Assembly: GCA_022835595.1 (NCBI GenBank)
Contig: BQUP01000001.1
Span: 496,001-560,000 of the forward strand
DNA: 64,000 nucleotides
Direction: 5' to 3'
Source of the DNA: Cystobasidium ongulense
Lineage: Eukaryota; Basidiomycota; Cystobasidiomycetes; Cystobasidiales; Cystobasidiaceae
The position numbers and the translations under genes are program-made. The notes beneath the pieces were generated by a model. The model was given only the letters and a program-made list of their open reading frames with translations, made no database searches and had not been told where the DNA came from. Below are positions 1-61,629 of the stretch, one piece after another; position 1 is the first letter of the stretch, and the number at the start of each line of letters is the position of its first letter.

Positions 1-370
1 TCATGCCGTGACAGCAACGAGCAGCACAGCGTGTGTAGACTGTGATACTGGATACACAAGGTGCAAGTCCTGCTGCGAGGCTGGCGGCCTTGCGTCTGGC
101 CCAGTGTCGGGCAATCCGGCGCCACTCGACTTGCATCTTGCATACATGCATGCTTCTCTCTACCACACACACCACCGCAGAGTGCTCTGCTGCTGAAATG
201 GCCTTGATGGAGTAGAGTAGAGTGCACACAAGTGAGCAGGGCCGCCGGTCCATCGCAGCTCATGCATCGCTCATGTCCACCTCCTCATAGATCTCGGCGG
301 ATGTCAACAAACACGCTGTGGATGCTGTAAACGAGAGCGTCAAGGCGAGTGCAACAAGCCGCCATCAAGC

Positions 371-3300
371 ATGCAGGTGTATCACGACGACGTTCAGTGC
401 GAGAGTGTACGCTCCGTCTCGACCCACACACCCGACTCGTCCTTGTCGCGCACAATGACATCGGCAACAGCAGCAGCACCCCCACTCATGCTGGACAAGG
501 TGTTGCTTGCTCCCCCAAACATGGACAGCAGCAGACCTTCATTGACAACTGCATCTCAATCTCCACGACGAGTCTTTGGATCGCATCCAGCCATGACAGC
601 TGCCGTTGCTCCCTCCAGCTCATCCAAGCCTTACAATACGAGTACAGCAAACAGGCCAGTCAAACGATCGAGCGTCGGTCTGTCCTCGTCTCCCAAAAGA
701 CGAGCAGCGTCAAGTGCAGACACGAAATCAGTCAAGTCAACGCTCCTCATCATGCGATCCCCTCCTGCTCCGTCAAAGAACCTCTTCAAGCCTGCAAAAC
801 GGCCTCTAGAAGGTCCAATCGCCACCGACGGTGATCGCCCTTTGAAGCGCATCAACAGCATAGCCATGCAAGCAGCGAGCGATGCAAGCCATAATCCTCC
901 TCCAAGTGCCTTGATAGCTGCATCTGACAATAGAGCGCCTTCAAAAGCGGCTAGAAAGTCATCTAGCTTGCCGAAAACATCGCCATCAACAACAGCTGTT
1001 GCCAAAGCAGACACAAACAAGCACGTCGACTTCCAACAGTTTGTCCCAGCTTCACCATGCAAGCAAGCTGGCGGACAGTATGCCAGCACGTCTCTTGCAC
1101 ACCCTGAGATGTCTAGAAAGGCCTTCTCACTGCCAGTCAAAACATCGAAACCAGCATCCATAATGTCCCTATCTCCCTCAAAATTCGGGCTCACTCTGCC
1201 TAAAACAACTTTCGCTTTTCTCAAACCTTCTCTTTCCACATTCACTACTTTTTCGGACTCGTTGGGAGCATCATCATCCAGCTCTACTTCGCAGCCGACC
1301 GGTCTCGCTCCATCACCCATTCGATCCGATGAGCACGTGCCACGACCGCTGGCAGAACCAATGCATGTCTTGCCTTCAAAAAGTTCCAGTCTCGAGTCGA
1401 TAAATAGTCTCATTGCAAGTCCAGATCGCGTACAGGCTATGTTCGCCAATCCTTTCTTGAAAACTCAAGAAGGTAGAGCACATATCTCGGCCGCTCTGCA
1501 AATACCCAGCTCGCCCCCTTCATCATCAAATGCGAAGGACAACCACAGCGCACCCTCTTCTATTTCATCAGCAAGCTCTTCTAGGCCTGCTAGTCCGATG
1601 CAGCGAGATGATCTGATGCGTCGGACAATTGAGCGAAGTCCCGTTGGTGAGATGGATCGTATGGCAGTAACTTCGCTTGACAGTGGGAAAGTCGGACAGC
1701 CCCGCCAGAAGGCCAGTCAGACGTATCAACGATACTCCCTCTCTCAGGATCCTCTAACGACTACTACGGATAATAGACATGATGCAAACCACTCTGCGTC
1801 TCGCCCTTCACTATTCGAGAAGAGCTGGACACAAAGCAAACCTTCGTCGAACTCGCTTGCGCCGGCGCCCTCCAGTCCTTTCAAGCGTCCACTTTCGCCG
1901 ACTGAGTCAATGTATACCGAGCAACGCCAAGTTCGTAAACGTAGTGAAGATACACTTTCCCGCCGACAAAGCTCACGCCAGGCAACGAGAGCCTCGCTAG
2001 GAAACGACAAAGCTTTAACAGGTCCAGTGTTTGAGACAGCAACTGCACTTAGAAAACCTAGAGTTAGCTCAAAGAGTCGTCAAAACAGCAATGAATCTGA
2101 ACAGGGCAGTAAACCACTATATCGACCTGCATCAGCAGGCGGATCGGCTCCAATCACAAGACCGCCATCGAATAGATCTTTATCTGCGCCATCAGCTACT
2201 ACCACGGGATCTACTGCCGATGTATTCAAAGCTCCTGCATTCACTTCGATGGCACCGCCACGCAAGTTGGCTCCAGGAAATGCAGCCATCGACGAAGGTG
2301 ATAGCGTCGAGACGTTTGACGCCGACACATCCGTCATGTCAACCTCTGGCCTCTCATCGCTTGCGAATTTGCAAAACTTGCTCACTAGAATGTCCCGACC
2401 TAGCATGAGTAGACGCACCAGCTCTGCTTTCCCACACCCATCTGCAAGCTTGGTTAGCTTGCCCGAGAAGGCGGAAGCGGAGATCAAGAACGCAGCACAG
2501 TCGTATAACGACAATAATAAGCCATCTCTCGGTCAATCAGCTTCGAATAGTCGACCTATAGCTGCTCTACCTCGATATGCCGCTCCTACTTCATCTTCTG
2601 CCGCACGACAATCCAAAGGGTCGAAAGGGCCTGATTCTGTCGAATTGCTTTCATCTGAAACAGTGGCACTGAGGCCCAAAGAACGACGACGGATCTCAAG
2701 CGGCGTTCCTGAAGTACGGAGAGGTAGCCTTCTACCAGTAGCAGTCAACGCTGCTCAGCGCATGACTGTGCGGCCTGATGCGGGCACTATGGATGGGGTG
2801 CAGAAGTTGCCGGCGTTGAAAGTCTCAAAAGTCGAAAAGTGCAGCATACTTCAGGATGTTGTTGCCTTTGTGGATGTCAAGACGGCAGAAGGAGATGAAG
2901 CTGGTGGAGTGTTTGTTGATATTCTTCGAAACCTTGGAGCACGAGTATGTGGTTATAGACGTCAGGGGATCGTCTTGGATGTGCTGACCTTGACTCTTTG
3001 CGTTTGTAGGTACTTGCACGTCCTACAGACTCCATCACGCACATTATCTACAAAGGTGGTCGTCAGGCAACAGTCCAACGCTACCGAGCTTATACAAAGG
3101 AGCCCAAGCCTTTCTTTGTGGGAGTAGGCTGGATAGTCCGATGCCGCGAGACGAACGAAAAGGCGAACGAAACGCCCTTCTTGGTGAATCCTGATACTGT
3201 CGATAATGGTGTATTACTTGGTGCTGGCGTACAAGGGCAAAACATTAAACTTGTCCAGCCATTGGGCCTCTCTTCAGGCAATGTCAGCAAAGGTATAAAT

Positions 3301-3709
3301 GCGAATAGAAGGAAGACGCTCGAACCGAAAGTGCTATTCCCGGATCCGAAGAAACCGGCGTCTGCTTTACCTCGTGGACAACAGACTCTTCATGGTAAGC
3401 GCAATTGAGTATTTATTTCGAAAACTTGGGCAATCCGGCTAATTTATCATGAAATCTCTTCTGCTAGCCTTCAGCGTTTTCCGCGGTGATGACAGCCAGC
3501 GCAACTCTTCGACTAGCCAAGGTGGCGAGATTGAAAGGGCAAGACAGAGGTCTCTCAAGTTTGCGCCCAGAAGTAAGCAAAGTCAGGCCTTTTCCCGAAT
3601 GTCACTAGGCTTACCTTCGTTTTTGGTTATTCTAGTCGGCTCGCCATTGAAGCAAAGAGTCTTCAACGCAATTGAGCACGACGAAGATGCGATGCAAGAA
3701 GACTCATAG
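371..3709 (+). CDS. BRCT-domain protein, microcephalin-type
   Basis: Four exons: 371-2944, 3010-3394, 3468-3572, 3636-3709 (about 1045 residues). Introns are 63-73 nt with GT..AG ends, and splicing keeps one frame to TAG at 3709. Roughly the first 830 residues are Ser/Pro/Lys-rich and look disordered, with many short basic SP sites. One BRCT domain follows: SILQDVVAFVDV, then after the first intron THIIYKGG, and the C-terminal helix FFVGVGWIVRC with its conserved Trp. Spacing and sequence resemble the first BRCT of microcephalin more than a tandem phosphopeptide-binding pair. BRCT domains bind partners in DNA-damage and chromosome-condensation proteins; a nuclear role is inferred. Start uncertain: Met at 371 or the next in-frame Met at 455. 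The family call rests on the BRCT only. Confidence 0.8.
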
Positions 3710-18692: not shown

Positions 18693-21600
18693 TTACGCTA
18701 GTACCGAACCGGTACTATTGGCATGTAGCGCATTGCTAGGATACCCAGCAAGGAAGTCGGCGAATGCGGCCGATGTCCCAAGATTCGAGCTCAGATTTTT
18801 TGATGAGAAATAGTCTTGCGAAGGGGCCATTAGGCGAGTATCAAGCGCGGGAGAGGGAGTAGGAGGTGCGCTAGCGGGTCTAATAGGTATATCTTGAATT
18901 GAAAGACCAAATGTATTTGGTAATCCAGGAGACATATTGTATCCCGTTGTGGCATTGTTGTTACTATTCGACGATGATGAGCCACCACCCAGCATTCCGC
19001 CAGAGGAAAAGATACCACCAGGAGTGAAAAGTAAACCAGCTCCAAAACCCGGCGTTTGACCTCCATTGCCTATTTTGCCCATTGCACCATTGAACAAATC
19101 TGCAAAGTTAGGTGTAGCAAGTCCGAATGTAGCTCCTGCTGATCCAGGTCTATTGATATCTCCAACCGTACCAAGCTGACTATTATTATTTTGCGAAGGC
19201 AATTGACCATGTTGATTGTGCGGATTCAATCCAGCGAGTAAGTTTTGAGGTTGTAAAGAAGCAGGAGACAGGTTTAATTTATGAGGTGCTCTTTGTTGCG
19301 GACCCGATAATTGGTGATGCTGTTGACCCAGACCACCAAGCTGAGGTTGTGAGGCTTGTACATTCATGCCATGAAGTGCAGGAGGAGCGAGTGTAGGTCC
19401 TCCACTGATATTAGAGCGTACACCAAGAGGTTGAGGTTGAGTTTGAATATGCACTGGAGGATGACGAGGAGGAGCGTTATTGACATCTGGAGCTGAAGAA
19501 GAGTGAGGGTGAGGTGAAGCATGCGTCTGCACGATAGCCGGAGGATGAGACATGTATGACATATTCTGCTGGTAACCCTGTTGATATTGAGGCTGCTCTT
19601 GCTGTTGCATCATCGATGTAGTGTGACTAGGTTGCTGCTGTTGTCGCCAGTCTGGCAGTTGTTGCTGCTGATGGGGCTGCTGAGGTATCGAAGCAGGAGT
19701 AGCGGAAGGTTGATTCTGAGCTTGCTGCTGCTGAAGTTGATGATTTCCGACGGCACCAGAAGGAGGAGCAGCAGCGCCCGCAGCCGTACAACCCGATCTC
19801 TCATGAAAAGAAAGAGTATGTCTCAAAGCGAAAAGCTCCTTTCGTAAGGTATCAATTTCAGATGCTAATGATTGATTTTCAGTTTGTAATCTAGCAGCGT
19901 GAGTTTCCAGGTTATTGATCCATTCCTTCTTCTTTTGTCGGGATCGGCAAGCAGCTGGTAGCAAACCGATGTCAGCGAATTTTGGTTTTGGTCGACGGAT
20001 GCAATTGCGAAGTGAGACTCGAAGCTCACCTTGTCTATTCCTTTCCAAGAATGCCTTTCGTTTGTGTTCATCATCACCATCCTCGTCATCATCACCCGCA
20101 CCATCTCCATTAGGAACACCACTTCCACCGAATCCATCACCAGAATAACCACCGCCATTATTATCAATATAAGACGAAGTATTTCCTCCCTTTTTACCAG
20201 AAGTAGAACCAGTAACAGAAGTAGCTCTATCTTCATTATTAGATTGTTGATTCTTTTTTCCTTTCTTGCTAGTCGTCGTAGTTGCTGCATGAGTTACTTT
20301 TTGAGCAACTCTAGTACCTCCTTGTCCGGCACTTGTTGTCGATAAAAGGACAGTATTGTAGTTTGCAGGGTCTAAAGCTCCTGTAGAAAAGTTCCCAAAT
20401 GAAGAATCATACATATTTGAATCTTCTTCTTGCTTCACAATTGAAACTCCTTCATTAAGTTCAGTAGTATTTCCAGAAGCAGGAGCTGTACTTCCTCTTC
20501 TATTATGATTGTTAGAACGGGTAGATCTAGAAGATCTAGCTGGTCCACGTCCATTCGCATACGGTATAGGACTATTATTGCCGCTCTTAGTGTTACTGCC
20601 TGTTACCGGCTGCTGCTGCTGCTGCTGCTCAAGAGATCCTTGTCTTGCAGATTGGGGAGGCTGAGATGCGACAGGAGATGCTGTTCTTTGCTGCTCCTGT
20701 TGCGCTTGCTGTAGTGTTTTCGGAGGCAAAATAACTGGCTGAGCCTGTTGTTGGTGTTGTTGCTGCGGCTGAGCCTGAGACACGTAGCCCGTATATCCAG
20801 CATAATGATGACCGCCCGGTTGATGTTGTGGCTGTTGTGTATTGAACGTAGCACTGTTCATTGGAGGGGGTACACTCTGAGTGAGAGTATTGCTTCGATG
20901 ATGTCCAGATTGTTGAAGTCCAGAGTACGCATCTTGCTGATGGGAGCTTACAGAAACAGCACTCGCATTACCGAATATACCATTGGGTGCTAATTTAGCA
21001 GCTTCAAGCTGTTCAGGAGGGATTGACATTTTCCTCTCTTGATTGCCGGCAGGATTAAAGTGGGCAATGGCACCGCTAGTCGCATTATGAGGTAAAATAG
21101 CATGTTGGAGAGAAGGAGTTGGAATCATAGAAGAAGAGGCTGGAGAACCAGAGTCTGGTGAAGCGTTCATATTGAGAGTCATGCTTGGAGAGGGAGCATA
21201 TACTGATGTTCCTGATTCAGTGGTAGATGATAGATCCGACGAAGAAGGGTTTGACATGTTCAACTCGTCAAGTTTGGGTCTTTTCCAGGATGGAAGTGGA
21301 TGACCAGATTCATCTAGAGGGAGGGCTCTAGAAGATGCATCGTTCTGTAAAGATGAGAGAGAGGCAGTTTGAAAAGGCCTCTTCAAGCTTGATACCGAAG
21401 AAGAAAGGCTTGTATTTCCTCCGGCATTTTCAGTATCTTCTCCATCATCTTGGGATGAAGATTTGGATTGACCCTCCTTACTAGAAGCGTTGATTGTGCT
21501 TTTACCGTTACCATCCTTTGTACCTGCAGCAGCATTGATTGGAGCGAGGAGATGTTCGTTGTGTTTAGGGAAAAAGGACAGTTCAAAAGGGTTTAGTTCT

Positions 21601-21842
21601 TTGCTTGGGGAATAGGCTTTAGGACTATGCTTGAAATTTGCAGTCGTAGGGGTGTTGCTTGTGCCTTGACCATTAGCAGCAGCTAACGAACCCCAAAAGG
21701 GCGAGCCGAATGCGGTTCCAGGTGTAGTGTTGCCTCCTCCCGGTGTGCTATTGAAAGTCAACCATTTCGAAGGGGTGTCTGTGTCGGGGTCGCCGAGGAA
21801 CGAGAGGTCGGCGCCTGATCGCGTGCGCATGATGTGTACCAT
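18693..21842 (-). CDS. Atf/Sko1-type bZIP transcription factor
   Basis: Two exons, 20030-21842 and 18693-19954. The 75-nt intron (19955-20029) lies inside the basic region and is divisible by three, so the frame reads through it. Spliced length is about 1024 residues. Splicing restores the ATF/CREB basic region KAFLERNRQAACRSRQKKKE at about residues 592-611, followed by a leucine zipper to about residue 655. Near the N terminus, KELNPFELSF and the Ser/Thr-Pro-rich stretch before it resemble the Aft1 HRA region of Atf1/AtfA. The rest is Gln-, Pro- and Ser-rich, with several polyQ runs. Homologues are targets of the Hog1/Sty1 stress MAP kinase and bind CRE sites; that role is inferred here. A very long 5' flank suggests complex control. 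Confidence 0.9.
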   Translation of the reverse strand: MVHIMRTRSGADLSFLGDPDTDTPSKWLTFNSTPGGGNTTPGTAFGSPFWGSLAAANGQGTSNTPTTANFKHSPKAYSPSKELNPFELSFFPKHNEHLLAPINAAAGTKDGNGKSTINASSKEGQSKSSSQDDGEDTENAGGNTSLSSSVSSLKRPFQTASLSSLQNDASSRALPLDESGHPLPSWKRPKLDELNMSNPSSSDLSSTTESGTSVYAPSPSMTLNMNASPDSGSPASSSMIPTPSLQHAILPHNATSGAIAHFNPAGNQERKMSIPPEQLEAAKLAPNGIFGNASAVSVSSHQQDAYSGLQQSGHHRSNTLTQSVPPPMNSATFNTQQPQHQPGGHHYAGYTGYVSQAQPQQQHQQQAQPVILPPKTLQQAQQEQQRTASPVASQPPQSARQGSLEQQQQQQPVTGSNTKSGNNSPIPYANGRGPARSSRSTRSNNHNRRGSTAPASGNTTELNEGVSIVKQEEDSNMYDSSFGNFSTGALDPANYNTVLLSTTSAGQGGTRVAQKVTHAATTTTSKKGKKNQQSNNEDRATSVTGSTSGKKGGNTSSYIDNNGGGYSGDGFGGSGVPNGDGAGDDDEDGDDEHKRKAFLERNRQGELRVSLRNCIRRPKPKFADIGLLPAACRSRQKKKEWINNLETHAARLQTENQSLASEIDTLRKELFALRHTLSFHERSGCTAAGAAAPPSGAVGNHQLQQQQAQNQPSATPASIPQQPHQQQQLPDWRQQQQPSHTTSMMQQQEQPQYQQGYQQNMSYMSHPPAIVQTHASPHPHSSSAPDVNNAPPRHPPVHIQTQPQPLGVRSNISGGPTLAPPALHGMNVQASQPQLGGLGQQHHQLSGPQQRAPHKLNLSPASLQPQNLLAGLNPHNQHGQLPSQNNNSQLGTVGDINRPGSAGATFGLATPNFADLFNGAMGKIGNGGQTPGFGAGLLFTPGGIFSSGGMLGGGSSSSNSNNNATTGYNMSPGLPNTFGLSIQDIPIRPASAPPTPSPALDTRLMAPSQDYFSSKNLSSNLGTSAAFADFLAGYPSNALHANSTGSVLA

Positions 21843-24214
21843 TGTTGTTGATTATAGTTGATTGTTGTTGTATTCGCATTCGAGCATGTTCGATTGATGT
21901 TGAGTATGGTCATCCGAGAGACATTGCGGCAGCGGGTCCAACGAGTGAGTCCGGCGAGAGCGGATAGTCGGGGTGTGCGATAGATAGTACCGTAGATATA
22001 AAGGTAAAGTAAGGTGGAATCGTCAGCATGTGTCTATATCTCTCTTTGAAAGCATGCGAGCGAGGAAACTGGACAGAAGAGAGCGAGGTGCGACAGGCGT
22101 GGCAGCGGATCGACGGAGACGGCTGGGAGAGCTGAAGGACAGCCGGGATGGAGAGCAGAGTACACATCGAGCGCGACTGCTGGCTGCTTGTCTTGCCTCT
22201 CCATCCCACGTCCACCACCGCAATGGATGGCCGTACAGGCAGGCATTGCTGCGGCCGGGCAGGACGAGCACGACTAGCCTGGACTTGGTCGGAGTGGGTG
22301 GCATGGATGGGTGCATTTGTCTGCATCATGTGGTCATATTGGCCTGCTCGTCTTGCCTCGCCGCAGTCTTCCATTGGCCGCTGTCCCACTCTCTCTCACT
22401 TGCCCTCTGTCTGTCTGCCGCGCATGAGGCCGCACGCATGCATCCACCCTGGACACTCACCTCTTGGAGGCAGCTCAACCCTGCTGCCGGGTTCCATGGA
22501 AGGAGTCTTGAGCTGATGACTGTACCACTCCTGCGCCTGCGTAGTATCCCGTGATATGACTATCCACGACCGTTCCTTGTTGCCCTGTTCTTTGCTTTGC
22601 TTTGCTTTCACGGCCAGGCCAGGCAGGCAGGCAGGCAGGCAGGCCGGAGGAGGGACCGGGATCTGGCTTGGGCGCGCTGGCTAGCTACGTCAGACCTGCT
22701 GGACGAAGGGTGCTCTGCTCTGCTACAGTATTTGGGCGAGCTTGCTGCTTGTCCTCGTCTTTCGCGTGTGTCCGCGGTGTCTGTCCGTCTTGCTCGTCTG
22801 TGCGACGCTGTGCCAGAGTACCGAACCGTGCCGCACCGCACCGTAGCTGCAAGTGCGTGTATGCTTGCGTGTGCCGTCGATGGTCGTGTATGCGTGTGTC
22901 GGTGGTGCGTCGGTGAAAGCACTACCGTACCCTCTGCCGTCCAGCGCCCTCGTGTCCACCTCCATCCGGCCATGCTCGCTCGACACACGCCACCACCTGG
23001 CACGCACGCAGACTGTAGCTTTTCGCAGTCATTATTGCATACAGCACACCATCCTATTACTGTCACTACCAGCAAACCCTGCTGCCATCCATCGCTATCC
23101 ATCCTCAAGCTGCGGCTGTCCCGCCTGTCGCTCTGCCAATCTTTCTCGATCAGCCTGTTCTGGGCAGCAGACAGCCAGCATGATTTGCAAATCAGGATCT
23201 TCTTTCATAAATAGCGCAACATTCCGAGCATTATCATCTAACACGTCCATCTTAACCGTATCCATAGCAGTATTTACTGTAGTTGCAACTTGCAGCAAGG
23301 ACGGTCTACTACTATGATACAGTGTCAATCCTCTATAACCCTCCGTAACTCTCCCCGCTGACGTCCACGGCAATAGCAGGTCAAGAGTAAAGTGAAAAAG
23401 CTTCATCAAAAAGCAAGACAAAGAGCAAAAGGAAAAACGTAAAGAAAGGTAAAAGACTTTTCAGAAAGCAAAAGCAAGCGATTCGACCAAGTTATTATTA
23501 CGTCAACTCACACCATTGTGCAACACGTCACAAACTATTACTGGTACCGGTATCATTTTATTACAGCCCAAAAAGCCACCCCCCAGGTTGTCAGTTCAGG
23601 CTGCTTTTTCGTTTTTGGTATTTTTGCTTAAAAGCATGTCAGGACGAAACAAATATATACCGTATTCATTATCATTGCTATTCACATTGAAGAAAGGCTA
23701 ATCATATGCAGATGGATCTGAATCGGTGTCGCCGGAATTATTTCTCCTAGCTTCGTATACAGGGGAAACCCCGACCTGTGAATATGTCCGGAAATCCGAA
23801 ACACCCTTGGTGCGTTATAGTCGTTCAGGAACAAAGGGGTGTGCTTGGAACGAATGCAAGAAACAACAAAAAGGCCTTCATATTCGAGTCCGCAGGCTCC
23901 ATGACCATAAATAATCGTTGCTGCCCAGTGAAAAGGTGGCAATGAAGGAAGCAACGTAATCCTTGCCTGTTCGATTTAGATGCTGAATACCTCACACAGT
24001 ATCATAAGTGCAAAGGTAGAACAACCAGCAAAGTTGATTCCGTGGGCTTAAAAACGATTTAATGATGGCAGTTTCATTTGCGGGCGAATTCCCTAGAATC
24101 TTATAACGGCTACATTGTATTGTTCAAAAGAGTATCCTAGAACAAACAAACAAAGCATAACACGTCAGTGATGCGATACGTCCATGCTATTGAGATATAT
24201 CGCAGCCTCGAGAC
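21843..24214. other. Long 5' flank of the bZIP gene
   Basis: About 2.4 kb between two minus-strand genes. Many overlapping frames exist on both strands between 22000 and 23300, but composition is repetitive and no domain or exon structure emerges. It holds a GCAG-type microsatellite and motif copies at 21988-21994, 22923-22929, 23545-23552 and 23658-23664. A long untranslated leader or regulatory RNA cannot be excluded. Confidence 0.45.
22621..22643. repeat. (AGGC)n microsatellite
   Basis: About six tandem AGGC units, preceded by short TTTGC repeats at about 22590-22607. Confidence 0.9.
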
Positions 24215-27200
24215 TCACATGCCAACATCATCATCACCACCTTCATCCTGCCTATCATCTTCCTCTTCTGTCATAGAAGGCGAGAGCAAAGGAGTTGACG
24301 GTGCAGAATAATCATCTTCTGCTACTATCAAATTGCCATTCTCGTCTCTTCGCTGTAAAGCACGTAAAGGTGATAAAAGATCATTCGGTCTTTCAGCATC
24401 TGTATCGATGCGTATACGTGGTGGAGCTGTTGTGTTGGCGGCTGTAGCGCTCAAGAGAGAACTATCGGATACAGATGACGTTTGACGATGATCATCATCT
24501 CTTGCAGCGGTACTGGCAGCTAAAGCAGCTTGAATGTCGTTCTTCTGGAAGGGCGGATCGAACAACTCCGAATCACTATCCGACGATGCGTTGATGCCTA
24601 GACCGGTTGGCCGTTTCGAGGCACTAGTAACAGGTTCATCACTGCTCGCATCAAGCGGATTAGCCTCGTTTGAGGCAGAAGCGTCATACTGAGAGGAGGT
24701 AGTCTGACTACTCTGTCCGCCTTGCTGCGTGTCTGAAGGAGAAGCTTCAGAAGCTCCACCCATCGCCATCTGACCTTCTAAAACCTTTCGCTGATCTTCT
24801 AAACGTTTAAGTTCAGCTTGTAAACTAGCTAGATGCATCTGACGTCGACTAAGTTCCAATTCTGCAAGTTTCTTCTCCCTCTTAAGCAAAGCTTTCTTTC
24901 TTAATCGTTCAACTTCTGGTATAAGTGTCCCTACAAAAAGTACGATACCAATGTATAGATTTCGCAATGCTCTTTCTAAAGTTAATGGTTGAGATTGATA
25001 AGCTCGAATTGCAGATGGTGTGCCCGGTTGATTGACTTGTGTAGGAAGAGGCGGTACAGGAGTACCGTTTTGTGTTGCTTGTCGACTTGTGATCTGCATT
25101 TGACGAAGTACAGTCCTTGAAAGGCCCATATCACGAGCTTCCGCTGAAAGTCCAACTTTGGCTAATAGATAAAGCCAATATTTGGGAGACATACGACTTG
25201 GCGCTTGTCGATGGGATGAAGAGCGAGAAGAACCACCATTGGCTCTGCCTTGTCTCCTGGCATCATCAGCTGGATTCTCTCCGTTGCGCAAGCGCCTGCG
25301 TAGTTCCTGATTTCCCAGTTCTTGCAAACGCTGCTGGAGTTGTGTCAATGCCGGCGGAAGTTGCTCCTGTACACCAAGAAGACGAGCTTGCCCTGCATCG
25401 TCCGGCCGGTCCGGATGCGGCGCCTGTCCATCGAGGTCGCCAGGTCGCCCTTCTCCGCCAGGAACATTGGGCGGATTGTCATGCTGTTCTACCACTCGAA
25501 TGCGTATACGGTCTTGTAGAGCATTCTGCTGACCTGGGCCAGGAGCTCTTTGTTGTTGCCTTCTTGCTTCAGCCGCTCTGCGTCTTCGATGAATGGATGT
25601 TCCCTCCCAAATAACCCATGCGAGAGCCATGACACACATGACGATCCGCTTACGCGTTGTGGCATGCTTGCCAAAGACGTAAATGAGGAATGCGAGCTTT
25701 ACGGAGAGGAAGAGAAGAGGCATAGCGAGCGCCATGATCTCGTCCAGGTTGATGACCACAGCCAGTCTTGCGGTAGGCATACCAGGTCCAGCGAGGCGAG
25801 CGGCGGCTTGTGCTCCGATACCGATACCTCCAATCCCGTTAGGTCGGTTGAGACCTTGTTGCATGGCAATACCGGCAACGGGAGGCATTGGTCCGTTATG
25901 TTGATGCGCATCTCTTGCTCTTGCAAAAGGAATCTGGTACGAAGAAGGGAAGCCGGCTTGGCTTGTGCCATGAGCCAGTTGTAGATTGCGCGTGATGCTT
26001 AGCATGGTGCTTAGTAGCATATGAACCGTTTGGTACCTTTTGAGCTGGACGAAGGCTTCTTTGCGCTCCTTGGCTGGAATTGCAAATTGAGGAGGAATTT
26101 GAAGGAGAAACGGATAGCCAGAGATGTAGACGACACGACTGCTGCTTTGGCCACCCAAAAGTCCACTTTGTGTCTTTTCGACTGCATCGAACTCTTCTGC
26201 TGCCGTGGATTCTGCAGCGCGCACGCTTGCCAAACAGCCTAGATCGTCAAGCAATTGCTCAATGCTATCCTCCATCTCTTTAACGGATTGTGACGAGAAG
26301 CCTGTACCAATCTGACCTGACTCGCGTAGCTGTTGTACCTGTTCCTCGCCCAATACTGTCATTTGAGGGCCTTGTCGCTCTGCTGCAACTTTTGACAGGG
26401 TGGCGTAGTAGCGTTCAGCTCGAGAGACGCGCCCAATGAAGTCGGCTCTTTGTGTGGCTGACAGGGCTGAGAGATGGGTAGAGAATGTTTTCCACTGAGC
26501 TGCATTCATCTTGGATGAGATAGGTGCGGCAGACGAGATTGTCGCGAGCGATGGAGGGGAAACGGAGCTGTCGATGATTGCTTGAATTGATGTGAGAGGC
26601 GGATGCGTGTCGGTAGGTCTTGGGCCTGGAGTGAGGAAAGCGGAGGGTTGGAGTTGTGGAGGAATGGGAGAGGTGCTTGGTGTCAAAGATGCTGATAGAG
26701 CAGACAGTCGCTCTGCTGCTGAGGATGCCGAGCTCTTGATGTTTGATGTCAAGGCTGCTGTCAAAGGCGCCGTCTTCCACATCTCGGCAGGACAGGTGAG
26801 GTGCAGGACGTAGCCCATGTCCGGCTGTATGCACAGAATACAGATGATTAGCATAGTCTCATCACATTGTAATCCCCGATACGGTGATACTGCTCACCTG
26901 CTGGGTGCCTTGGACGACCTGCTGCAGGACCTCATCATCGGCCAAGCGCCTACCGTGCCAGAGGAGGCTTTGGCCTTTTGCAAGAGGACCTCCAGGGAAG
27001 GACTGCTCTAGTCTAGCTTTCAAATCTTTCACTGTGCTCGCTGCAGGCACTTGGAGCTTCTCTGGGATGGTGTACAGCTCTGCCACGTCTGCTGTCTGTA
27101 CGCCATGCTGTAAGGGACGCTGCGGACAAAAGACCGCGAGCTGGATTGTGGGAGCACCGTCGCCATCTTTTGCTACTGGGGATGATGCATCTGGATGTGT

Positions 27201-28272: not shown

Positions 28273-30247
28273 ATGGCCGTGCTATCCACTCCAGTCCACT
28301 CGGCATTCGTCAACTTCGACCCCAAGGTAGCGGTCGTCGTTGGACTTATCGCAATCCTCGTCTACTTCTTCAAGCAGCACAATGACTATGAGAAACGAAG
28401 AGGTGGAGCAAAGAGGCTGCCCGGTCCCAAGGGGGCCCCACTTATCGGCAATCTCAGACAACTTCCCGCCTTGAAACCCTGGGTGGCTCTCAAGCAATGG
28501 GGAGATGAGTACGGTGAGCTTTCGATTCCCACTAGTCAGCAGCTTGTACTCTTTCGAAGGGATTCGCATGCATTCTTTCCTGCACGTTAGTGGCGAACTT
28601 GTGCTGATGATATCCGTCTTGCCACGGTTCCTCAACTACTAGGTCCATTGTACCGATTGAAACTTGGCGTCCAAGAAGTCGTAGTCGTCTCATCTGCCGA
28701 CCATGCTATCGAGTTGCTCGACAGGCGTTCCCCCAAATATTCGTCTCGACCTCGTCAGGTCATGGCCAACGATCTTATTTCCCGAGGACTTCGTTTGACT
28801 TTTATGCCATAGTGAGTGTTGAGATCGTACATTTGACAGCGCCATGCTGACTATGTGCATTCAGCCACGACCTCTGGCGAAAGGAGAGAAAGCTCATTCA
28901 CAAGCTGACTTCCGCCCAAGCTTCTTCATCTTACGAGCCCATGCAAGATCTCGAGTCTACACAATTGATGGTCGATATGCTCGAGCGACCCAAAGCATTC
29001 TGGGGTCACTGCCAACGATATGCTGGATCCCTCATCATGCAGATCGCCTTTAACAAGCGAGCGAACCGAAATACCGACCCTGCAGTTGCAGATATGGTAC
29101 GCATATGCTTTAAGAGTAAAGCCTACTTTATTTCGAGTACTAAAGTCTGTTGTGATTTTCAGCGTGCATTGCTCGAAGAACTCACATCAGCCGCCGTTCC
29201 AGGCCGACACTTAGTCGACTCTCTTCCTTGGCTCAATTTCCTGCCTACCATCCTCGCACCATGGAAGAAAAGTGCCGAAAGAATCTTCAATGCCCAAGAA
29301 AGACTCTTCTACGGACATATGCAAGACGTCAAGCGTGATATCGCTTCTGGTCAAGATGCTCACTGCTTTGTCAAATATATGATTGACATGCAAAAGGAAT
29401 CCGGACTGACGGATCAGGAAATCGCTTTCTTGGCTGGTGTCATGGTATGTCGACTCAAGAGATCTCATTGTATGTGGACTAACACGTCTCTCTTGCCAGT
29501 ACGGTGCCGGATCGGACACAACTTCAGATGCTATCGCCACCTTCATCATGACCATGGTAAACCACCCCGAACAACAACGTCTCGCACAGGAAGAAATCGA
29601 CCGAGTTGTTGGTCGAGACCGCATGCCTACATTTGAAGATCAAGCGGACCTCGTTTACGTCTCTGCCATGGTAAAGGAAGTCCAGCGATGGCGACCAGTT
29701 ATCGCTGGTGGTCTCGCACACGCTACCACCGCAGACGATGTTTACGAAGGCTACTTCATCCCAGCTGGCACTACTATCATCCCCAACGCTTGGGCTATCC
29801 ACATGGATCCCAAAGTCTACCCCGAGCCAGAGAAATTCAAGCCTGAACGATTTATCAGCAACAACCAGGTTGTCGGTATCCCTCAATCAGAGCGTGGTCA
29901 CTTCGGTTTCGGATATGGCCGAAGAATCTGCCCGGGAATGTACATCGCTGAACGCTCACTATACAGTATGTCTTTGCGATGTTCTAGCTGTTCTTTTTCA
30001 AGCTGACCTTTCGGTAATTCTCTCAGTCGTCTTCTCTCGTATGCTTTGGGGATACAATATTGCTCACGCCAAGGACGCTCTGGGCCAGAACATCCCAGTC
30101 GACGTAAACGCATACACGACCGGCTTTTCGTCCCACCCTCAGAAATTCGCTTGCTCTATTACTCCTCGCCACAAGGACGTGGAAAGCATCGTCCGAGCGG
30201 CGGCTGAGCACCACCACTTACCAAAGACAAGCGGTTTGGTAGCATAA
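28273..30247 (+). CDS. Cytochrome P450 monooxygenase, microsomal
   Basis: Six exons: 28273-28513, 28643-28811, 28865-29096, 29163-29444, 29500-29965, 30027-30247 (536 residues). An N-terminal membrane anchor (about residues 18-36) is followed by the Pro-rich hinge RLPGPKGAPLIGN. The I-helix is YGAGSDTTSD, the ExxR motif is KEVQRWR, and PERF follows. The heme-binding loop FGFGYGRRICPG carries the axial Cys. All core residues of an active class II P450 are present. It resembles fungal P450s of the CYP64/OrdA type that act in secondary or xenobiotic metabolism; I cannot give a substrate. It needs an NADPH-P450 reductase in the ER membrane. No biosynthetic cluster surrounds it. Confidence 0.95.
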
Positions 30248-48987: not shown

Positions 48988-51397
48988 ATGGTACGCTCGT
49001 TTCCTGCAGGAAAATATAAAGCAGCTGCTTTCTGCCTGGTCGCCGCCTCGCTGGTCTCCCACTCCCAAGCAGATCTTCTACCATTGAACGAGACTAGTTC
49101 CATACTCTCTGGCTCAAGCTCCATCCTCAATGGCCTAGTCACCGCCAGCGAGGCCATCAATAGATCCCCCGTAGACGCTTTGCAGTCCTGCCTGCAGAGC
49201 CTTTCTCCAGTCTTTCCTAATTCTCAAAACTACAAACAAGATTCAGCGCCATTCAACCAAGCTTTCAGCTGGAAGCCTGCTGCTATCGTATACCCTCAGA
49301 ACACGAACGAAGTCGCTCAAGCGGTGAAGTGCGCCGCAAGCTCGGGCTATAAAGTTTCTGCACGTGCAGGTGGCCACAGCTATGCCGCTTTCGGTTTGGG
49401 TGGTGAAGAGTGAGTCGCAGAGACCGAACGTATACAGACTGATCATCCCAACTTTCTACTGACTCGTTTTTCGTTCCGCTTCATAATCTAGTGGACAAGG
49501 TGAGAGAGACCTGATTTAGCCGACTGCATGCGGCGTGCTGCCCCGCATATAACTGACAGCAAAAACCCAGTCATCGTCAGTCTCGACAAATTGGCATATT
49601 CGTATGTGGACTCCTCCACCGGTATAGCTACAATTGGAGGCGGTACTCGACTAGGCCCCGTGGCTCTGGGTTTATGGCAAGGAGGCCAGCGTGCCATGCC
49701 CGTGAGTGGGCAGAAGTACCTAATTACCCAAAGCTAAGCTAATGTTTCGCTCTTCAATCATCGATAGCATGGAGTGCGTCATAATCTTTAACTTGCTCCC
49801 ACTGTCAATCGCTGAACTTCTCATCCCTACTATTCCCTTCGTGCAGACATGCCGTATGTAATGTCAGTGCCCCCCGGAATAGGTAGTTCCCGTAGCTAAT
49901 CTCTCTTCTACAGCCTATGTCGGATCTGGTGGACATTGTGAGGAACTTGTACGCGTGTTCAGTCGGAGTCGGTAGACTGACAGAAGTCGCGAAACCAGTC
50001 GCTATGGGCGGATGGGGCCTTGATTCACGCCTTTGGGGTCTAGCAATGGACAACGTCGAATCTATCAAGCTCGTCAAAGCCGATGGATCCATCTCTACCG
50101 TCTCATCATCGAATGAACCCGACCTCTACTGGGCGATGAGAGGTGCCGGACCATCTTTCGCGATTGCGACTGAATTCAAGGCAAAAACCTACCAAGCTCC
50201 TCCTGAAGTGTACCATTTTGAGCTCAAACTTAATCTCCAAAATGCACAGCAGGCTGCTAAAGCTTTCTTGGCTTACGTCAATTGGGGAACAAGTGCAGAT
50301 ATCCCGGCTGGGCTCGGCATGCAGGTAAGCCTAAAAGTTCCGGTCTTTTCTAAGGCTGCCGTGACTTACAGGCGACCACCCGTAGCTTGAACTAGGCAAA
50401 AACAACTTCGTCATCGAAGGAACATACTATGGCGCTAATGGAGAAGCTGCATCAAACCAAGCCATTGCGTCTCTCTTGCCAACACTCCCAGTTCAGCCTA
50501 CCCAGACAAATTGGAAAGCAGACTATATTACATCGGTCAAAAAGCTTACAGGTAATGAAAACGCAAGCTTGAATGTCACGGGAACAAGGGATTCTCCAGA
50601 TACCTTCTTCGCGACTGCACTTTTTGTCCAAAGTGAGTGTAACGTGACTCTCATTGCACATGGAAAGAATAAATTGACGAACTTTTGCGACTGCAGAGGA
50701 CAACCTCCTTACTGAACAGGCGGTACAAAGCTTCTTCAATTATATCTACGGAGCTGGAGCACAGTCTAACACTCGATGGTATATTCAAAGTACGCTATAT
50801 CCAGTTACGCTTGTCTCAGTGGCCTTGCTGATGTGAAACACAGCCGATATCTGGGGTGGTCAAGCTTCCACTATCAATAAAGTTGGGCAGCAGGATACGT
50901 CGTTCTGGGTGTAAGCTACACGTCACGTACATATGATGCATAAAGGCTTAAATCTCTGTTCCTTCCTTCCTCGCTCATTCAGCCGAGATGCTGCATACGC
51001 ATTCCAGTTTTATGCCAGCACTCCCAATTTCTCGCCACCATATCCGCAAAGCGACATCGACTTTGTTCAAGGCTTCAAGAACAGTATCACCTCGCAAATG
51101 CCAGGAGTCACTTTCTATGGCTATGCGAACTATGTAGATGCTACTTTGAGCGCATCAGAAGCGTAAGTATTGAAGACTTCCGATCTGTTCTACGGTTACG
51201 CTGATGCATGTGATCTATTACAGTCAAGCTTATTATTATGGAGGTCATGCGGACAAACTGAATCAGATTAAGAAGCAAGTGGATCCTAGTAAGCTGTTCT
51301 CGACTCGCTACGTTTGACTTTCGAGTTTTGACGAAGCCTCGTCGCGTCCTGTCCAGACGGGATCTTCACCAATCCTCAAGCGTTCGGCAGACAGTGA
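48988..51397 (+). CDS. Secreted FAD-linked oxidase, berberine-bridge/GOOX type
   Basis: Thirteen exons: 48988-49409, 49492-49499, 49571-49701, 49768-49773, 49847-49853, 49914-49937, 49999-50324, 50386-50632, 50697-50789, 50844-50910, 50983-51162, 51224-51288, 51357-51397. Length is 538 residues. A signal peptide covers about residues 1-28. The FAD domain has RAGGHSYAAFG, with His130 as likely 8-alpha-histidyl anchor, and PHGTCPYVGSGGH with Cys191 as likely 6-S-cysteinyl anchor. GGWGLDSRLWGLAMDNV follows. The C-terminal BBE motif is YYGGHADKLNQIKKQVDPN. Such enzymes oxidise sugars or alkaloid-like substrates with O2 and release H2O2; the substrate is not known here. Four exons of 6-24 nt are needed to read the flavin motifs. 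Splicing by eye keeps every phase. Confidence 0.92.
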
Positions 51398-60724: not shown

Positions 60725-61629
60725 ATGCAACGCTCGTGCATACGCTGTCTGAGCACATCCGCGCGCTCGCTCGTCTCGCAGACTGCTTCCACTTCAGGCA
60801 GCAGCAGCTCGTACAGCCCTCCAGAGCATTTGCAGAGTAGGCCTGTCGTCCCAGAACTCAAGCACGTCGAGCCACAGCTGAGGGAGCTTCTCCTCAACCC
60901 TCTGCGTCACGCTGCCGTGTACTATGGCAACAATCCAGGTGCGCCTAGCTTTCTCTTGTCGCTGTCTGCACTCTGCAGCCCTCACAGCTGAAATTCCCAA
61001 TCTTTGCTCTTTCAGACGACATATTCAAGGATGCAAACACATCATCTAGCCATTCCACTACAAACTTCGCAAAGGTAACAGCCGCCGTGAATCGTAATTC
61101 CTATTCTCCCTCCTCTTCCTCAAGCGATTCATCAATTCTCCCACCCGCCGTTACTGCAATCGACAAGATCATCGAAATACCTCCCTTGGAAGACCCTTTA
61201 CTTTCGTTCATGACAAATCTAATGATGAAAGACGGTAAAAAAGCAACTGCTCGCAAACATGTCTCTTTGTTACTCTACACACTCCGTCTACGATCATCTG
61301 CATTGCCGATGCAACAATTACGAGAAGCAATTCGATTAGCTTCACCTTCTATTAGATTGACACAACAGAAAAAGGGAGGTAAACAAGTAGCAGTGCCTAT
61401 TGCGCTTGGAGAGAGACAGAGAGTCCACAAAGCCATCTCATGGATCCTCGACGCTAGCGACAAGAGAAAGAACCCAAATGCAGGTGGAAGCAAGAGATTC
61501 GGCGAAAGAGTTGCATTGGAGGTCGAAGCTGTATTGAATGGCACTTCTGAAGTACTCAAGAAGAAGGAGCAGATTCATGTCACCGCTACTGTCAGCAGAG
61601 CCAACGTGAATGCCGGATCGAGGCGATAG
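60725..61629 (+). CDS. RSM7: Mitochondrial small-subunit ribosomal protein uS7m
   Basis: Two exons, 60725-60938 and 61016-61629 (275 residues). The first 30 residues are Arg/Ser-rich without acidic residues, a typical mitochondrial presequence. The S7 core runs from about residue 140: LLSFMTNLMMKDGKKATARK, then ALPMQQLREAIRLASPSIRL, VPIALGERQRVHKAISWIL and GGSKRFGERVALEVEAVLNG. These are the rRNA-binding helices of bacterial-type S7. It assembles the head of the mitoribosomal small subunit. A Ser-rich stretch separates presequence and core, as in other fungal Rsm7. Confidence 0.93.

Follow-up and report, generated by a model that had tools for sequence, protein, structure and literature searches.

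Predicted micro-exons in the flavin-anchor segment of a GOOX-like oxidase gene from Cystobasidium ongulense

The oxidase gene and its flavin anchors

The window analyzed here is a stretch of 64,000 nucleotides (nt) from the basidiomycete Cystobasidium ongulense (assembly GCA_022835595.1, contig BQUP01000001.1, positions 496,001 to 560,000). On its forward strand, at 48988-51397, lies a predicted gene, intact as modeled, for a GOOX-like (AA7-type) flavo-oxidase. In a hand-built spliced model, the gene measures 2410 nt from start to stop and consists of 13 exons and 12 introns, with a coding sequence of 1617 nt and a product of 538 amino acids; the model contains no internal stop or frame break. 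All 12 introns begin with GT and end with AG, and they are 54-82 nt long. Four small exons (8, 6, 7 and 24 nt) are located within 446 nt, the 6- and 7-nt exons being consecutive, and introns 3-5 interrupt the near-invariant segment HGTCPYVG.GGH of the protein. This cluster is the subject of the present analysis.

Exon 1 (48988-49409, 422 nt) provides the start codon, a hydrophobic N-terminus and the motif GGHSY with His130, and ends in phase 2. Behind intron 1 (49410-49491, 82 nt, GTGAGT...CTAG) lies micro-exon 2 (49492-49499, 8 nt, TGGACAAG), which completes Asp141, encodes Gly142-Gln143 and supplies the first base of Val144. Intron 2 (49500-49570, 71 nt), with an in-frame alternative acceptor AG that ends at 49559, separates it from exon 3 (49571-49701, 131 nt). 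Intron 3 (49702-49767, 66 nt, GTGAGT...ATAG) is followed by micro-exon 4 (49768-49773, 6 nt), whose sequence CATGGA encodes His188-Gly189. Intron 4 (49774-49846, 73 nt, GTGCGT...GCAG) precedes micro-exon 5 (49847-49853, 7 nt), in which ACATGCC encodes Thr190-Cys191 and, with its last base, opens the codon of Pro192. Between intron 5 (49854-49913, 60 nt, GTATGT...ACAG) and intron 6 (49938-49998, 61 nt, GTGAGG...CCAG) lies the small exon 6 (49914-49937, 24 nt), which completes Pro192, encodes Tyr193-Val-Gly-Ser-Gly-Gly-His199 and begins Phe200. An earlier note on this DNA had proposed exons 2-6 with their GT and AG borders, matching phases and the readings His-Gly and Thr-Cys; the rebuilt model returned the same boundaries, phases and residues. 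Exons 4, 5 and 6 each have an acceptor and a donor of their own, keep the phase and encode conserved residues, as expected of micro-exons, a term for internal exons with a coding length of about 3-30 nt or less; the 8-nt exon also fits this description, less firmly. In 9 of the 12 introns, a branch-like site (YTRAY) was found 11-28 nt upstream of the AG, a count made without a background control.

The searches of PDB, Pfam and protein sequences were performed with a 534-residue version of the product, in which intron 12 is read through and the protein ends with STRYV; it differs from the model only at the C-terminus. The PDB matches included 6y0r (chitooligosaccharide oxidase, ChitO; E 1.5e-82), 5k8e (FAD linked oxidase-like protein; FAD, flavin adenine dinucleotide; 2.3e-82), 9vn8 (6.1e-82) and 1zr6 (glucooligosaccharide oxidase, GOOX; 4.5e-81). 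Two Pfam domains scored over the cut-off, FAD_binding_4 (PF01565, 83.1 bits) and BBE (PF08031, 35.3 bits). Similarity over nearly the full length, together with these two domains, places the predicted protein among the AA7 / GOOX-like flavo-oxidases of the VAO/PCMH fold, in agreement with the FAD oxidase family named earlier. Relative to GOOX (PDB 1zr6, 2axr, 3hsu) and the other AA7 oxidases described in PMC8035211, the homology is nearly full-length, the GGHS and HGTC anchors are aligned, and nothing about the protein is outstanding.

Both residues for bi-covalent attachment of FAD are present, His130 in GGHSY and Cys191 in HGTC. The HGTC Cys of a homolog, P0001, aligns with a column occupied by Cys in 1zr6 and by Ala in 3hsu, and we take the aligned Cys of 1zr6 to be the flavin-linked Cys of GOOX. 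Cys191 is thus the likely 6-S-cysteinyl anchor, with the residue number and role first given in the earlier note, and His130 is the expected 8-alpha-histidyl anchor. In PpBBE1, the flavin-linked residues are H111 and C172 (PMC6001459); the spacing between His130 and Cys191, 61 residues, is equal to theirs. A cysteinyl bond to the flavin of GOOX is mentioned in PMC8035211, which describes the AA7 oxidases characterized earlier as bi-covalent and reports that both the redox potential and the oxidase activity are lower where the cysteinyl bond is missing. The same source presents a His facing the flavin as a residue thought to aid the reaction with oxygen; judged by position, His199, encoded by the 24-nt exon, may be its counterpart. 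The enzyme is probably secreted, and its secretion, covalent flavin and oxidase activity are all predictions. The proposal that the tiny exons encode the flavin-attachment motifs holds for Cys191 in exon 5 but not for His130; because the latter sits in the 422-nt exon 1, just one of the two anchors falls in a micro-exon.

Homolog support, conservation and chance controls

In the protein search, the 7989 candidates with the most words in common were scored, and 72 matched at E <= 1e-30. Among the matches listed, those from named organisms were mostly from Basidiomycota, with identity up to 44%. One of the 72, P0001 (533 amino acids), showed 83% identity over 98% of the query; its source consists of four contigs, the longest being 1928 nt. 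With P0001 as the query, the best structure was 1zr6 (E 2.6e-83). P0001 and the model align without gaps and colinearly from residue 63 to the end, with 430 of 476 residues identical. Across the contested region, P0001 runs uninterrupted (GGENGQVIISL ... RAMPHGTCAYVGSGGHFAMGG), and both GENGQV and HGTCAYVGSGGHF are continuous in it. P0001 is probably the transcript of a relative rather than an intron-free gene, because contigs of up to 1928 nt are too short for a gene with such introns (2410 nt).

Employing a purpose-written script for gapped spliced alignment, we aligned the part of P0001 that runs from about residue 64 to the C-terminus with the genomic DNA and recovered exactly the 12 introns of the model. 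The alignment covers exon 7 (49999-50324, 326 nt), exon 8 (50386-50632, 247 nt), exon 9 (50697-50789, 93 nt), exon 10 (50844-50910, 67 nt), exon 11 (50983-51162, 180 nt), exon 12 (51224-51288, 65 nt) and exon 13 (51357-51397, 41 nt); the last contains the stop codon, and the C-terminus NPQAFGRQ is the same as in P0001. The alignment score fell from 420 to 390, 367, 340 and 337 when exons shorter than 9, 15, 25 and 40 nt, respectively, were disallowed.

Intron placement was also compared among the 71 homologs besides P0001; P0067 and P0068, in which the segment is not covered, were left out (n = 69). Introns 3, 4 and 6 were each placed as in the model by 68 of the 69 homologs and intron 5 by 67, while introns 1 and 2 were each placed by 61. 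The junctions of all six introns (1-6) were recovered together in 59 homologs. The alignment of P0039 omits exons 4 and 5, and that of P0063 deviates around exon 6.

Conservation was highest in the same exons. The mean share of the 72 homologs with the same residue was 0.99 for exon 4, 0.93 for exon 5 and 0.75 for exon 6, relative to 0.38 for exon 2 and 0.27-0.41 for the remaining nine exons. Gly189 is identical in 72/72 homologs and His188 in 70/72; Cys191 is identical in 70 of 71 and His130 in all 71 that align there. HGTC stands at the matching place in 59 of the 72 homologs, the other 13 having a variant or a gap. The 6-, 7- and 24-nt exons encode the stretch of the protein that tolerates the least change, and introns there have no freedom to slide.

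We further compared the exon chain with chance expectation. With the donor of exon 3 and the acceptor of exon 6 fixed, all GT-AG chains that encode His-Gly-Thr-Cys plus one base, with introns of at least 35 nt, were searched exhaustively. The search covered the native sequence between these sites and dinucleotide-shuffled versions of it with the end hexamers kept. The real DNA offers exactly one such in-frame chain; none of 100,000 shuffles offers any. Likewise, PHGTC was recovered in none of 2500 dinucleotide shuffles of 49708-49907, and GQV in none of 2500 shuffles of 49416-49564. The bare pattern AGCATGGAGTNNGT (AG-CATGGA-GTNNGT) occurs four times in the genome, relative to one occurrence of a control; therefore, the 6-nt exon with its borders is unremarkable by itself, and the weight lies on the ordered in-frame chain. 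The claim that the conserved sequence can be read only through tiny exons thus stands for HGTC, with its single chain, but not for the 8-nt exon, for which an in-frame rival intron (49410-49559) exists.

These results also bear on the idea of a decaying or mis-assembled gene copy with tiny exons that match by coincidence. Its introns are numerous for its coding length relative to some neighbors, such as the uninterrupted S7 gene, as might be seen in such a copy. However, the gap-free identity to P0001, the GT-AG borders of every intron, the open frame and the failure of all 100,000 shuffles argue against decay, and a search of the genome itself (19.77 Mb in 19 contigs) with P0001 found one locus among the best candidates scored. 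We regard this explanation as very improbable. The genome search for a second copy of the cluster or for repeats of its introns also returned only the locus itself among the best candidates scored. Six other FAD_binding_4 loci are present in the genome, all distant from the oxidase.

Splicing of the small exons

Because of the in-frame acceptor ending at 49559, the 8-nt exon is on weaker ground than the exons of 6 and 7 nt. If exon 1 were joined to this acceptor, with exons 4-6 unchanged, Lys-Asn-Pro would replace Gly-Gln before Val-Ile-Val (GED-KNP-VIV instead of GED-GQ-VIV), and the 8-nt exon would be unused or present in one of two forms. The frame is open over 49560-49570, four homologs choose exactly this intron, and another four bypass the exon in other ways, P0051 with an intron at 49410-49580 and P0058, P0059 and P0072 with one at 49403-49570; moreover, exon 2 is no more conserved than the gene at large. 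On the other hand, P0001 contains GENGQVI, most homologs select the 8-nt exon, as described above, and Gly142, which it encodes, is kept in 66 of 71. A branch-like site, CTGAC, stands 13 nt before the AG at 49570, nearly on top of the AG at 49559. Use of the rival acceptor is therefore considered unlikely.

The effects of skipping were derived from the model. Loss of exon 2 shifts the frame and leads to a stop at codon 205, and loss of exon 5 to a stop at codon 212; joint loss of exons 4+5, 5+6 and 4+5+6 also shifts the frame, with stops at codons 210, 204 and 202, respectively. Without exon 4 or exon 6, the frame and Cys191 are kept, and His-Gly or YVGSGGH is lost. The earlier statement that skipping a tiny exon would remove the anchor or shift the frame is therefore right for exons 2 and 5 and only partly so for exons 4 and 6. 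Retention of any single one of introns 1-11 produces a stop between codons 142 and 505.

Such outcomes could serve a regulated switch, in which inclusion of the micro-exons changes with growth and skipping yields early stops (exons 2 and 5) or an altered protein (exons 4 and 6). The stops at codons 202-212 and the in-frame loss of exon 4 or 6 suit this idea, and a glucose-dependent micro-exon switch has been reported in Trichoderma Xlr2 (PMC11121469). However, the residues of exons 4-6 are near-invariant, so that the in-frame skips would most likely give a dead protein, and constant inclusion is the simpler explanation. We consider a switch of this kind improbable.

In a stwintron (twin intron), a splice element of the outer intron is split by an inner intron, and the whole of the intervening DNA is removed. 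Several neighboring GT/AG pairs lie inside the 212 nt of 49702-49913, which could suggest that this segment leaves as one intron-within-intron unit and that the small pieces are not exons. We tried this class and rejected it: removal in one piece deletes His-Gly-Thr-Cys and shifts the frame in the same way as the joint skip of exons 4 and 5, and the small pieces code precisely for His-Gly-Thr-Cys. The probability of nested introns appears negligible, the lowest of all the explanations considered.

From the exon chain, the splice sites and phases, the homology, the conservation and the chance controls, we infer that the cell splices the gene in this way, with constitutive use of the exons and removal of the introns in order. 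It is very likely that the coding sequence is cut by 12 short introns, that the small exons, three of them in the motif and the 8-nt exon upstream, are constitutive, and that one enzyme is made. Fungal introns of 54-82 nt are generally recognized as units (intron definition). Each short intron of the oxidase gene, having a donor and an acceptor of its own, would most likely be recognized in this manner. The introns would probably leave in order, such that each micro-exon is already merged with a neighbor into a longer exon when the next intron is cut; two splicing complexes would never be needed simultaneously on one 6-nt exon. The two consecutive micro-exons would demand successive removal of neighboring introns, and the mature mRNA would give one enzyme with FAD on His130 and Cys191. 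The argument of the earlier note that exons of 6-8 nt are too small for exon definition probably does not carry over, as exon definition is unlikely to be the mode that matters here; because the short introns suggest intron definition, the tiny exons present no paradox.

Several points weigh against constitutive splicing of the cluster as modeled. The splicing pattern was deduced from DNA and protein homologs, and the order of intron removal is our reconstruction. The spliced aligner considers no quality of splice sites apart from GT and AG. The status of P0001 as a transcript was deduced from the shortness of its contigs, an intron-free gene being the alternative. The best alignments of shuffled DNA score 419 and 418, only 1-2 units under the real 420; this closeness arises because each additional intron is charged, so that the raw score is uninformative, and what counts is whether the motif is recovered exactly. 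Near the acceptors of introns 4, 7 and 10, a YTRAY site is missing. Retention of intron 12 (51289-51356) moves the stop to codon 535 from 539 and alters the C-terminal end; because the product is nearly full-length, the requirement for the last exon is weaker than for the rest. For the 8-nt exon, conservation is not raised (0.38), support from homologs is weaker (61/69), and four homologs (P0019, P0036, P0041 and P0050) pick the intron 49410-49559.

A further reading is that the cluster acts as a built-in gate, with the output of the oxidase depending on strictly ordered, error-free splicing. We hold this to be unlikely. If it were true, the 6- and 7-nt exons would be included only successively, errors at exon 2 or 5 would cause a frameshift, and the amount of active, flavin-anchored enzyme, hence the output of peroxide, would be tied to splicing conditions. 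The cluster would then also be a natural test bed for a spliceosome that meets two successive exons shorter than its footprint.

Genome context, known micro-exons and significance

Elsewhere in the genome, one FAD_binding_4 gene (L024, G000:C5:1295000-1300500, about 1814-3337) contains GGYGFVSRLYGLSMD and shows weak similarity to the oxidase; the matching block is unbroken across the position of introns 1 and 2 of the oxidase gene. In the window, long uninterrupted frames are found at 18696-21851 (1052 amino acids, bZIP), 236-3124 (963 amino acids) and 24218-26893 (892 amino acids), in contrast to the oxidase gene, whose 1.6 kb of coding sequence is split by 12 introns; the 963- and 892-residue frames have no Pfam match. 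The S7 gene matches its homolog as a single block at 60958-61626. Its closest homologs are P0073 (73% identity over 99%) and P0075 (99% over 59%, on a 97-kb contig), and its four matches from named organisms are all from Basidiomycota, with 40-46% identity. For a tricalbin gene, the closest homolog is P0099 (90% over 85%), and the best from a named organism has 54% identity over 36% (120 of 125 matches listed). P0103 aligns with about 1.5 kb of the tricalbin gene as a single block, and spliced modeling of the gene with P0103 gave a negative score. Scanning of the window revealed no tRNA and no Rfam match at the gathering score. A cytochrome P450 gene, split into two pieces or more, is located at 28851-30003; P450 genes are a reported site of micro-exons in basidiomycetes.

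Fungal micro-exons inside conserved motifs are already in print, and the oxidase cluster is a dense new example of this known kind. In the P450 cases presented by Nelson and Syed (PMC12940212), an 8-nt micro-exon lies in the I-helix motif AGHETT of CYP5141A1 from Phanerochaete chrysosporium, and a single-nucleotide exon of Fusarium CYP621A is backed by RNA reads; according to these authors, such exons preserve motifs interrupted by introns. Like those, the exons reported here fall in a near-invariant enzyme motif and were identified by fitting of homologs. The cases described there are single micro-exons in P450s, whereas the AA7 gene studied here has four small exons packed into 446 nt; and unlike the CYP621A exon with its RNA reads, this cluster is known from sequence alone. 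P450 genes of P. chrysosporium are reported to have exons down to 6 bp, with micro-exons in nearly a third of a large set (PMC1184071). They resemble the oxidase gene in being basidiomycete oxidoreductase genes with short introns and 6-bp exons, but they belong to another family, and only one gene is concerned here.

Small exons are described as frequent in basidiomycetes (PMC2897884), and in an anther smut genome project, internal exons no longer than 6 nt were marked for checking by hand (PMC4469406). In plants, micro-exons of 1-15 nt have been reported, including an adjacent pair of 5 and 12 nt in Peptidase M1 (PMC8831610), and a 1-nt exon is described in PMC4674806. The plant micro-exons of PMC8831610 are likewise tiny and conserved, some of them neighboring, and often overlooked in annotation; they come with RNA sequencing and conservation across species, whereas the oxidase cluster is known from one genome. 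Scans of viral, bacterial and archaeal contigs yielded no genomic counterpart from a relative, which is the outcome expected of such collections. The open-licence matches listed included no report of micro-exons in an AA7 gene, but AA7 and micro-exon were never searched jointly, so that the lack of such a report in the literature is not established.

The oxidase gene is unusual in the density of its small exons, with 6 and 7 nt in succession plus 8 and 24 nt, and in their location at a flavin anchor. Should RNA bear out the model, the ultra-short exons would be packed unusually densely by fungal standards, no denser run having been found in the literature consulted, and the enzyme family concerned has biotechnological uses. 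The cluster would also be a compact natural substrate with which inclusion of tiny exons through ordered intron removal could be tested. Gene finders would probably miss such exons. The anchor Cys is given in PMC8035211 among the residues that separate AA7 oxidases from dehydrogenases; if the cluster is spliced as modeled, fungal AA7 gene models that lack HGTC may be annotation errors, not mono-covalent or non-oxidase variants.

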